Source of the DNA: Acidimicrobiales bacterium
GTDB taxonomy: Bacteria; Actinomycetota; Acidimicrobiia; Acidimicrobiales; Aldehydirespiratoraceae
DNA: 64,000 bases
Direction of reading: 5' to 3'
NCBI GenBank assembly: GCA_029263215.1
Contig: JAJCXY010000041.1
Coordinates: 62,001 to 126,000 of the forward strand
The position numbers were made by a program, and so were the translations under genes. The notes beneath the pieces were generated by a model. That model saw only the letters and a list, made by a program, of their open reading frames with translations. It was not told the DNA's origin and searched no databases. The first letter of the stretch is position 1. Each line of letters begins with the position of its first letter. Of the stretch, positions 4,924-44,494 are shown one piece after another.

Positions 4924-6015
4924 TCAGGAGGTGTCGACGAGGTCGAAGTGGGATGTGGCCACCGGGCGGCCTGCGATCTGGAGTTCGATCCGGTGCAGAC
5001 CCGCGTGATAGCGCCGGGTCGAGGCGGTCTGAATCTTCCGCGCCTTTGTGAGATCGATGCTCTCTCCGGGGGCCAAGGTGAGATTTGTCCACTTGAACAC
5101 CTTCGGAGAGGTCGACCCGGCAGCGGTGACGTGATGGATCACGAAATCGACTACCAGGCGCTGATCGGTTTCGCCCGTGGATCGGATGGTGGTCGTCATC
5201 TCGATCGCCGACCCGAGAGAGATACGCCGCGGCGTCACGGCGAACGACTCGATACGGACCCTGGCATCGGTGGTGAAGCCGAGCAGTGACAAGGCTCCCG
5301 GATGACCTGCTTTCACCAGCGAACGAAGCGCGTGTCGAACCATCGTCGGATCGATTGTCGGGTCGTCGCTCCAAGCGGTGAGAACTTCGACGGTGCGGTC
5401 CGGTTCGGCGCGTGAGAGGTCGTTGAGATGATTGGCGACCGATCTTCGCACGGTCTCTGAATCGTCGTTGCGTAGTTCGGTGAGGAGTTCGACGCCGATC
5501 TCGGGGTCGGCGAGCAGGGATTGCACGCGGGGACCCCACGGCAGGCGCGGTCGGGTGCCTTCCGAAGCAAGTCGCCTCACGGCCTCATCGGTGTGGTGGA
5601 CCCAGCGACGCAGATGGGTGCGGGTGAGTTCGAGGTGTTGATCGAGGAAGGGCCGGATCGCGAATTCGCACGACCAGCGGCGAGTGAGGGACTCCATCGC
5701 AAGGAGCGAAAGCTCGGGATGGTCGACACCGTGGCGTTCGACGAATGAGCACAGGGGCCAGGCGGCGAAGCCGTCCACACCGGTGGCGGCCACATCCATG
5801 ACTATTCCGAGTGCCTCGGAATAGTCGTCCGGAAGCTGCTCGGCGAGGACGTCGGCGACGAGATTGATCCGCTCCTTCAACTCCAGAGCCGGGAATTCGT
5901 CGAGCAGGGTCGAGGCGAAACGATCCGGGTCGAACTCGGCCGGGTGAGCACCGAATCGCTCGGCCAGTAGTCGAACCACGTCGGAATCGAACTGGTTCTT
6001 GAGTGGCTCGGCCAT
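4924..6015 (-). CDS. AlkC-like DNA alkylation repair protein
   Basis: A 363-residue protein starting MAEPLKNQF, the typical N-terminus of AlkC-type 3-methyladenine DNA glycosylases. Residues 1-240 form helical HEAT-like repeats rich in Leu and Arg, including RRWVHHTDEAVRRLASEG and RPRLPWGPRVQSL, which resemble the family's DNA-facing segments. Residues about 245-363 are predicted beta-strand (RISLGSAIEMTTTIRS, then HRIELQIAGRPVATSHFDLV), matching the extra Ig-like domain that distinguishes AlkC from AlkD. Known family role: removal of N3-methyladenine and N3-methylcytosine from DNA. The start at 6015 rather than the adjacent ATG at 6018 is chosen because TAGCCT lies 6 nt upstream of it. It converges on the ACT gene. 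Confidence 0.85.
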   Translation of the reverse strand: MAEPLKNQFDSDVVRLLAERFGAHPAEFDPDRFASTLLDEFPALELKERINLVADVLAEQLPDDYSEALGIVMDVAATGVDGFAAWPLCSFVERHGVDHPELSLLAMESLTRRWSCEFAIRPFLDQHLELTRTHLRRWVHHTDEAVRRLASEGTRPRLPWGPRVQSLLADPEIGVELLTELRNDDSETVRRSVANHLNDLSRAEPDRTVEVLTAWSDDPTIDPTMVRHALRSLVKAGHPGALSLLGFTTDARVRIESFAVTPRRISLGSAIEMTTTIRSTGETDQRLVVDFVIHHVTAAGSTSPKVFKWTNLTLAPGESIDLTKARKIQTASTRRYHAGLHRIELQIAGRPVATSHFDLVDTS

Positions 6016-42527: not shown

Positions 42528-43112
42528 TCATTCCGGCGGCGGGATCTCCAGCCGGGCCACCCTCTTCAACACGTTGCGGTCGGTGTGGAGGTAGGGCTCG
42601 TCGTACTCCTTCATCGCCAGGGTCGATGTCTCGTCGTAGGTGAGAGTGTCGCCGTCGACCGACAGATTGCATTCGTAGGCGATGCAGCGGGCGTTGCGGA
42701 GCAGGTAGGTGTTTTGGGTGATGCCGTATTCGTCGCTGTCGACATCGGCCCGCATAGTGAACGAAGTTGCATCGGGTGCGGCTTCACCGCCGGCGAGCAG
42801 GGCTGATCCTCGAGGGATGACGAAGCCTCGCATGACATGGCCGAGAGCCGCATCCCAGAGCCAGTAGCCGACCTCGGTGTGGAAGGGGATGTCCTCGCCG
42901 AGTCGCCAGGCCGCCATCTTGTAGTCGAGGCCATAGAGCCGCTGGTCGCCGTTGTCGACCGGGCCGAAGGGCTTGAACATGATCGTCTCGCGATAAGAGG
43001 TGTCGCCGGGAGCGTCGTCCGCGTGGTGGTACGAGACGTCGAGTCCGCCGTCGCCTTCCCACTCGCCGGCGAGTTGGGCGAGGGGACCGAAATGGGAGGT
43101 GTCACTGGTCAT
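42528..43112 (-). CDS. Nitrobindin/heme-binding beta-barrel family protein
   Basis: A 194-residue protein with the family opening GPLAQLAGEWEGDGGLDVSY, then SYRETIMFKPFGPVDNGDQ, YGLDYKMAAWRLGE, FHTEVGYWLWDAALGHVMR and GFVIPRGSALLAGGEA. These correspond to strands of a 10-stranded lipocalin-like barrel (DUF1794/THAP4-type). Nitrobindins bind heme and react with NO or peroxynitrite, but this subgroup could bind another ligand; the heme-ligating His cannot be fixed by eye. It is divergently transcribed from the selenoprotein gene; TAGACT ends 6 nt before ATG 43112 (leaderless) and two inverted repeats overlap that promoter. Confidence 0.75.
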   Translation of the reverse strand: MTSDTSHFGPLAQLAGEWEGDGGLDVSYHHADDAPGDTSYRETIMFKPFGPVDNGDQRLYGLDYKMAAWRLGEDIPFHTEVGYWLWDAALGHVMRGFVIPRGSALLAGGEAAPDATSFTMRADVDSDEYGITQNTYLLRNARCIAYECNLSVDGDTLTYDETSTLAMKEYDEPYLHTDRNVLKRVARLEIPPPE

Positions 43113-43149: not shown

Positions 43150-43236
43150 AAGTTGGATTGATCTCCGACTGACCGACACTGCTATTCTCTCGCGATCACC
43201 ACCGAACCTTTCGAGTCGCCCGATATCCCAGCTCCG

Positions 43237-44238
43237 GTGGTCGCCGCCGCGTTCGCTGCGGTCGATGCATTGGGTCGACCGGGTCGATGGTGGACCGCAC
43301 CCCAGCGTCTGGCCATCGCTTCTATCGCCCGCGAGGCCAGACCTCGTCCGCTCTGGGATCGGCTCGCACCCTTGCAGACTCTCGATTCCGATCACGGCGA
43401 GCCCTTGTCGCGGTTCGTGGCGGCTCTCACCGAACTCGTTGCCGTGGAGACCTCCTCCATCGATCGGGCGACGGTCGAGTTGATCGCCGGTCGTATCGGC
43501 GACGCGGCCTACGCCGAACTCAGCGCGATAGTCGCCCAGATCGCGGCGATAGATCAGGTGTGCCATGCACTCGGCTCTTCGCTCCTGGAGTTTCCATCTC
43601 CGGGTCCGGGCCAGCCCTCACGAGTACGCCCCGACGATATGGGCGATGCCGGCGGCCATATCCAGATGACCGAGCCCTACTCGGGCCCCAATGTCGCCCG
43701 ATCGTTGAGCCTCGCAGCCGAGGACCACGGTCGTTGGCGAGGGCTGGTGCTCTCGATGTATTCGCGCGACGGATTCCTCGACATGGTCTGGACCGATCGT
43801 GCTCTCACCCGCCCCCAGGTGGAGCTGGTAGCCGCTCGCACCAGCGCACTCAACGAGTGTTTCTATTGAACGTCGGCCCACGTGATGCTGCTCGGTGCGA
43901 GCAGCGATGCAGTCGACAGCGAGGCCCATCTGGCGTCTGCGATGGATGGCTCCGACGCAGGTGTGCCGTACAGCGCCGAACTCACCGCATTCGCCGAGGC
44001 GGTGTGGAGGCGCGACGATTCACTCCCTCCGGCTCGAGATGCTCTTCGTGAAGTCGTGGGCGACGCGGGCCTGGTCGAGGCGGCCATCACCGCGGCGGTG
44101 TTTCGGTCGCTCAACATCGGAGCTGATGCCTCGGGAATCCCCCTCGACGACGAATACGCCTCCATCGCGGTGGGCTTCGTCGACGAACTCGGCCTGCGTG
44201 AGTTCTCCACCGCGGCCAACAGCCCCGACTTGGCCTGA
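43237..44238 (+). CDS. AhpD-like selenoprotein (CxxU), read through TGA 43867-43869
   Basis: A 333-residue alkylhydroperoxidase/carboxymuconolactone-decarboxylase-like protein if codon 211 (TGA) is read as selenocysteine. Reading up to that codon ends ...RTSALNECFY. The frame then continues for 122 codons with TSAHVMLLGASSDAV and, further on, FAEAVWRRDD, LPPARDALREVVGDAGLVE, IGADASGIPLDDEY and a normal stop. The motif becomes C208-F-Y-U211-x3-H215, exactly the C-x-x-C-x3-H of AhpD-type active sites with the second Cys replaced. A perfect hairpin follows at 43887-43905. The N-terminal half is a degenerate homologous domain without a Cys pair. Start: GTG 43237 has no ribosome binding site; an in-frame ATC at 43195 lies 6 nt after TATTCT and might be the true leaderless start. 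Without readthrough, a truncated 210-residue product results. Confidence 0.82.
43886..43906 (+). promoter_or_regulatory. Candidate bacterial SECIS hairpin
   Basis: GCTGCTC (43887-43893), loop GGTGC (43894-43898), GAGCAGC (43899-43905): seven Watson-Crick pairs, extendable by a U-G pair (43886/43906). The apical loop begins 24 nt after the TGA and starts with GG. Bacterial SECIS models require a loop about 16-37 nt downstream with a G in the first two positions. Confidence 0.75.
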
Positions 44239-44239
44239 A

Positions 44240-44494
44240 TCAACGAGTCTGGGTGGCCATCCGTCGTAGCGGGGGGTCGACCTTGGGCGGCGCTTTGCGC
44301 GGTGGCAGGGCTCGGAGGAGTTCGGCCGATATCGATGCCACCTCGCTCACGGCGCGCTCAAAGGCTTCCTCGGTGGCTGCTGAAGTCTTCTGCACACCAC
44401 TGATCTTGCGGCAGTACTGGCGAGCGGCAGCCTCGATTTCGGCGGGCGTGGCCCCCGGCTCGAGGCCCCTCAGGGTGGTGATGTTGCGGCACAT
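44240..44494 (-). CDS. DUF2277 family protein
   Basis: An 84-residue protein beginning MCRNITTLRGLEPGATPAEI and continuing EAAARQYCRKISGVQK, then EEAFERAVSEVASISAELL. This is the DUF2277 pattern in full (CRNI start, Y-x-RKISG, N/E-EAF-RAV). It is a short, mostly helical cytosolic protein of unknown function, common in actinobacteria. The C-terminal 20 residues are basic and Pro-rich. Its stop is one nt from the stop of the selenoprotein gene on the other strand. Confidence 0.88.
   Translation of the reverse strand: MCRNITTLRGLEPGATPAEIEAAARQYCRKISGVQKTSAATEEAFERAVSEVASISAELLRALPPRKAPPKVDPPLRRMATQTR

Follow-up and report, generated by a model that had tools for sequence, protein, structure and literature searches.

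In AhpD, the second Cys of the C-x-x-C site is the attacking residue. For the AhpD of Mycobacterium tuberculosis a passage of PMC3141380 names the residues Glu118, Cys130, Cys133 and His137. A group of proteins with a CXXU motif was described in 2005 in the selenoproteome of the Sargasso Sea, where "hypothetical protein 1", as presented in a passage of that paper (PMC1088965), consisted of four sequences with a predicted SECIS element. A passage of a 2026 review in AEM (PMC13188914) equates the NCBIfam family NF041238 (AhpD_rel_CFYUT) with this "hypothetical protein 1" (CxxU) of the Sargasso Sea metagenome. Because the two are the same, this kind of protein is already known.

Here we describe a locus from an Acidimicrobiales bacterium, found within a stretch of 64,000 nucleotides (the window). 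The gene is a new, well-supported example of a known family and not a discovery. A model's earlier note, made from the letters alone, had presented the locus as a surprise, and this did not survive, as the family is already catalogued as NF041238. The best explanation overall, of which we are nearly certain, is that 43195-44238 encodes an AhpD-related CFYUT selenoprotein in which UGA 43867 is decoded as selenocysteine (Sec). This reading rests on sequence, machinery, homology and the conservation of codons and base pairs, from which we infer the decoding event itself.

The reading frame and its in-frame TGA

The frame from 43237 reaches an in-frame TGA at 43867-43869 directly after NECFY and then continues for 122 further codons (TSAHVMLL...) to a stop TGA at 44236-44238, seen again in the sequence as the earlier note had given it. 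The active-site motif C-F-Y-U-T-S-A-H spans the TGA, so that the region is read as NECFYUTSAH. The following features are referred to below:

42528-43112, minus strand: THAP4-like heme-binding protein (PF08768, 66.5 bits), divergent neighbour
43183-43188, plus strand: -10-like element TATTCT, 6 nt before ATC 43195, which suggests a leaderless mRNA
43195-44238, plus strand: full selenoprotein gene, 347 aa, NF041238, probable start ATC 43195, stop TGA 44236-44238
43237, plus strand: fallback start GTG, giving 333 aa
43762-44199, plus strand: AhpD/CMD catalytic half, with Glu and, 12 residues on, C-x-x-U-x3-H (Pfam CMD; 6k40, 2oyo, 3c1l)
43867-43869, plus strand: in-frame TGA, read as Sec (U225 from ATC 43195, U211 from GTG 43237; selABCD in the genome)
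43887-43905, plus strand: SECIS-type hairpin with a 7-bp stem, loop 43894-43898 and conserved G 43895 (covariation and codon bases)
44240-44494, minus strand: DUF2277 (PF10041, 106.8 bits), convergent neighbour, not part of the system

Window-wide, 33 TGA read-through frames had more than 150 codons upstream of the TGA and more than 100 downstream of it. A Cys three codons before the TGA was present in two of the 33, the CFY frame (best helix 9) and a CVG frame at 1929 on the minus strand (best helix 5). Taken by itself, a read-through frame of this kind with a hairpin is not rare. The case rests on homology, codon-level conservation and the Sec machinery. The CVGU frame at 1929, with 219 codons before the TGA and 107 after it, is probably a chance frame; neither of its pieces matched a Pfam family at E 0.01. 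Another TGA of the 33, at 4926 on the minus strand (366 codons before, 163 after), is followed by a helix of 9 pairs and has no Cys at the CxxU position. It is likely to be an ordinary stop, because the frame upstream of it has a DNA_alkylation (HEAT-like) match.

Family membership

The fused frame was compared with NF041238, the family "alkylhydroperoxidase-related (seleno)protein". The match extends over 324 residues, spans the TGA and scores 249 bits, exceeding the curated cut-off of 175; with the GTG taken as the start the score is 248.3 bits. The CFYUT motif is present at the active site. Annotation pipelines carrying this model would be expected to join both pieces. The Pfam CMD family gave 28.7 bits on the fused frame and 18.3 bits on the upstream piece alone (cut-off 23), and the downstream piece alone had no Pfam match at E 1. 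The cut-off of the peroxidase-related enzyme family TIGR01926 was missed (30.5 vs 81.8 bits). A search of Rfam yielded three hits with E up to 5; none of them came close to its gathering score, and they were taken as chance.

Compared with NF041238 and the Sargasso Sea protein, the window protein is alike in its score over the cut-off across near-full length, in the CFYUT and CxxU motifs and in the SECIS-type element 3' of the TGA. Nothing essential differs; the window protein has a sequence of its own, its gene probably starts at an ATC, and the genome contains a second copy. In a literature search judged by titles, no title on Acidimicrobiia selenoproteins of this kind was found.

Selenocysteine machinery and further selenoproteins in the genome

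The earlier note had made its reading depend on selA, selB, selC and selD, and all four were present in the genome assembly (94.8% complete), each over its family cut-off. The tRNA-Sec scored 64 bits (cut-off 47; anticodon tca by ARAGORN) and lies on one contig, C78, together with selB (292 bits, cut-off 242.25) and selA (379.7 bits, cut-off 267.9), while selD is found on contig C18 (359.8 bits, cut-off 125).

In three more genes of the genome a selenoprotein site is occupied by an in-frame TGA. One of them is selD, whose frame reads HGAGUGCK. A second CFYUT gene, L012 (G000:C115:17009-17914, minus strand; G000 denotes this assembly), reads NECFYUMLAH and scored 235.3 bits with NF041238; its hairpin has an A-U pair where most relatives have C-G. 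The other, L081 (G000:C6:18667-19833), is a TIGR01926-type AhpD with CHYU (141 bits, cut-off 81.8), and so a third AhpD-type selenoprotein candidate in this genome.

Recurrence among relatives and association with selB

NF041238 matches over the cut-off were collected from 298 genomes of the same order, and the family was found in 55 of them. Counted by eye, the listed over-cut-off matches made up 77 rows, of which 72 had exactly one TGA, one had two and four had none (two near-full-length Cys forms and two fragments). One genome, G249, contained four TGA copies over the cut-off. When a phylum-wide sample was searched, the family was over the cut-off in 4/296 genomes, three of them from the same order (our own genome included) and one from the same class.

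The TGA forms went together with selB, which was over its cut-off in 52 of the 54 genomes with a TGA form as compared with 163/298 overall (Fisher p = 1.4e-13; the sample includes related, non-independent genomes). One of the 54, G239, was counted on a TGA that lies in a fragment next to the one over the cut-off. Among all 55 family-bearing genomes selB was over the cut-off in 52. The exceptions were G170 (83% complete) and G218 (76%), both with TGA forms, and G250, whose own over-cut-off form has TGC.

A total of 52 places was inspected, namely 50 fetched loci, the window and the paralogue. One locus, L051 (G239:C281), was dropped; a frameshift close to its CFYU site splits this homologue, by an assembly error or because the copy is broken. 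In the 51 extracted rows the Sec codon position was occupied by TGA in 49 and by TGC in two. The earlier note had suggested looking for Cys at position 211 in the family alignment, and Cys was indeed found there in L049, L050 and a Marinomonas sequence, L069, with TGC or TGT as the codon among the orthologues. With NF041238, L049 scored 236.9 bits and L069 288.6 bits, and L070, from the same record as L050, was also over the cut-off. The genome of L049 had no selB over the cut-off. L050 (G094:C434) has Cys at the site and comes from a genome with selB and with Sec forms as well. Most of the hairpin is present in L050, and this could be a recent change from Sec to Cys. An additional contig scan used a pattern containing CFYC, by which Cys forms alone are findable and which is silent on Sec forms. 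Seven of its ten loci (L072-L078) were weak matches, with E between 2e-7 and 8e-5, and were kept out of the orthologues.

The half downstream of the TGA was conserved in 38 aligned rows; the decay that the earlier note had named as evidence against its reading was not seen.

The SECIS-type hairpin

The hairpin consists of GCTGCTC (43887-43893), the loop GGTGC (43894-43898) and GAGCAGC (43899-43905), and so has a G in a small apical loop just 3' of the TGA, as in a SECIS element. Seven base pairs and a 5-nt loop beginning with GG had been claimed before and stood. The claimed distance of 24 nt from the TGA to the stem did not; it is the loop that lies at 24 nt, and the stem begins at 17. Taken alone, the hairpin of the window is thermodynamically ordinary. 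Its local fold had z = -0.55, with 49/200 shuffles folding at least as well, and 449 of 4000 random 60-nt segments contained a helix of at least 7 pairs whose loop started after 16-37 nt and had G as its first or second base. We rejected the hairpin as sole evidence, since such helices are common in random segments and it folds no better than shuffles.

The conservation among relatives was then followed at the codon level, using 44 non-redundant Sec forms (49 reduced at 90% identity), with expected values taken from the codon use pooled over these genes. At U+8 the third base was C in 44/44 (15.2 expected), at U+9 it was T in 42/44 (6.7 expected) and at U+10 it was G in 44/44 (14.8 expected). 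The Ser at U+11 had C or T as its third base in 44/44, with AGC or AGT in the printed rows. The amino acid at U+10 varied among the 49 forms (Ala 26, Leu 13, Ser 4, Glu 3, Val 2, Trp 1), and the fixed G is therefore not easily explained by selection on the protein. The second loop base was G in 49/49 Sec forms.

In the same 49 Sec forms, 94.8% of the 343 cells of the helix were standard-paired. Cells changed on both sides numbered 9, as compared with 1.9 in shuffles, and the covariation score of 0.246 was reached by 0/500 shuffles, which leave the relatedness of the sequences in place; the best slid version of the helix scored 0.176. Two pairs showed a change on both sides, which was not above the shuffles (219/500), and the helix slid by +2 exceeded the real one in such pairs (3 vs 2) and in pair types (10 vs 9). 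The helix thus appears to covary on most measures. Judged from codon and pair conservation, the hairpin element acts at the nucleotide level.

In the Marinomonas Cys form, L069, the Leu-Leu and Ser residues are kept and the hairpin positions pair in 4/7. The other Cys forms kept 3/7 (L049), 5/7 (L071) and 6/7 (L050) pairs. As L050 and L071 are still largely paired, Sec forms and Cys forms are not told apart by pairing alone.

Predicted fold and active site

AlphaFold2 was run on the fused chain of 347 residues with Cys in place of Sec, and returned a model with a mean pLDDT of 93.7 and a pTM of 0.93. Such a confident model indicates that both sides of the TGA would form one fold. Glu210, Cys222, Sec225 and His229 were invariant in 38 rows when U and Cys were counted as one, and their spacing, E-12-C-3-U-4-H, is that of the four residues of M. 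tuberculosis AhpD. This spacing and the Cys orthologues bear out the proposal that the TGA occupies the second-Cys site of the AhpD motif C-x-x-C-x3-H. The window protein differs from the M. tuberculosis enzyme in having Sec at the Cys133 position and Tyr at the His132 position.

In a profile search 6k40 was found at 1e-13, its C-x-x-C lining up with the C-x-x-U, and 2oyo and 3c1l were found as further relatives. When Foldseek was run with the model, no match at E <= 0.001 was obtained. The best one was again 6k40 (E 5.7e-3, target TM 0.62), covering about half of the chain; the AhpD-type entries (6k40, 2prr, 3c1l, 2oyo) came first, followed by the Bmp8 debrominase. The C-terminal half and the C-x-x-[C/U] site are thus common to the window protein and AhpD-like enzymes (TIGR01926; 6k40, 2oyo, 3c1l), whereas the window protein stays below the TIGR01926 cut-off, has an extra N-terminal half and carries Sec for Cys. 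For this N-terminal half no convincing solved relative was found; the profile matches in the PDB, with E of 0.07 and above, look like chance. In a test for internal duplication of the two CMD halves, hhalign gave a probability of 57.7% and E 0.0001 over 39 columns. The likeness to Bmp8 (6ohi) is a weak similarity of fold, with 15% identity in the structural match, and by the entry titles the substrate class differs.

Start codon and leader

No in-frame ATG occurs between the upstream stop at 43159 and 43237, and by eye no ribosome site was detected upstream of GTG 43237. The Met of the relatives L059, L061 and L062 precedes the WW-motif anchor by 29 codons. In the window gene the distance to this anchor is 15 codons from GTG 43237 and, with 14 codons more, also 29 from ATC 43195. 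The -10-like motif TANNNT ended 6 or 7 nt before the ATG in 15/40 homologues and in at most 2/40 at each of the other spacings between 0 and 35; these are the homologues with an assignable ATG (10/50 had none), the first in-range ATG was taken so that some are misassigned, and close relatives were counted. A consensus promoter scan found no sigma-70-type promoter here, and a literature search returned none on leaderless genes with an ATC start codon. From the sequence comparison, the gene probably starts at ATC 43195 on a leaderless mRNA; as the alternative, we infer an assembly error that turned ATG into ATC. Of the 333-residue full-length product proposed earlier, the fused frame is retained and the length probably is not, being 347 residues from the probable ATC.

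Neighbouring genes

The next gene, said before to follow after 2 nt, does so as DUF2277, with the added detail that it lies on the minus strand and is convergent. The divergent neighbour, THAP4-like, is presumably of the nitrobindin type, and a stress-related pairing with the selenoprotein gene is possible. Around 31 homologue loci, within flanks of up to 1500 nt on either side, no THAP4-like gene was present, and tblastn with four neighbour proteins was without a hit at E 1e-3 in the same flanks. When the flank ORFs were clustered, the largest group comprised 5 loci of one genus (L024-L028) and the next ones 3 to 4. Within these flanks there was thus no conserved neighbour that would name a substrate or a reductant, and the neighbourhood was rejected as a clue to function.

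Discussion

The reading as an AhpD-like selenoprotein with CxxU, put forward in the earlier note, was upheld by the match to NF041238, the presence of selABCD, the recurrence of the TGA and the conservation of codons and pairs in the hairpin. Under table 11 TGA means stop, the hairpin is unremarkable when taken alone and a terminator-like site lies at 43846, just upstream of the TGA (1 found vs 0.4 expected in shuffles), all of which would suit a true stop that separates two genes or marks a decaying pseudogene. Such a stop would not account for a TGA at the same codon in 49/51 rows from many genera of the order, nor for a downstream half that is conserved with invariant residues and matches no Pfam family when taken alone. 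With selABCD also present, we rejected the two-gene and pseudogene readings, which we regard as extremely improbable. Equally hard to credit is a read-through by suppression, with Cys or Trp and not Sec inserted at the TGA. The Cys found at this site in orthologues would agree with it, but the Sec machinery is complete, the SECIS-type hairpin appears to be under nucleotide-level constraint and the TGA forms are associated with selB.

On the selenoprotein reading, the ribosome would reach UGA 43867, and SelB with Sec-tRNASec would bind the hairpin 17 nt downstream of it. Translation would then go on with Sec in place of a stop, and the product would be a single, mostly helical protein of about 347 residues, in which Sec225 would take the place of the second Cys of the AhpD C-x-x-C and act with Cys222, Glu210 and His229. 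The AhpD matches and the spacing of the Glu/Cys/Sec/His set make peroxide reduction the best guess, and by analogy Sec-based hydroperoxide reduction is the most likely function. The selenolate would attack an organic or hydrogen peroxide to form a selenenic acid, Cys222 would resolve this to a selenenylsulfide, and the active site would be restored by a reductant of the thiol or dithiol type. A selenoprotein with another chemistry, either a Bmp8-like reductive dehalogenation or a role as adaptor or reductase, seems to us unlikely, while deserving attention. The Bmp8 structures 6ohi/6ohj were among the Foldseek matches (E 0.08-0.23), the sequence profile finds no solved relative of the N-terminal half, and the homologue flanks showed no conserved neighbour; yet the AhpD-type entries rank above Bmp8 and the Glu/Cys/Sec/His set has AhpD spacing. 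A more far-reaching idea, to which we give little credence, is that a mostly uncultured actinobacterial order expanded a leaderless Sec enzyme, here with an ATC start, and uses its selenolate for, for example, reductive dehalogenation on a two-half CMD scaffold without a solved counterpart.

The case indicates that an unaided reading of sequence can find a true recoded stop codon. The weight of such claims comes from codon-level conservation across relatives together with the Sec machinery, and not from the hairpin of one sequence. The family is frequent in one actinobacterial order, with several copies in some genomes, and rare in the sample of the wider phylum. Being a frequent but uncharacterised selenoprotein family, it is a target for enzymology.
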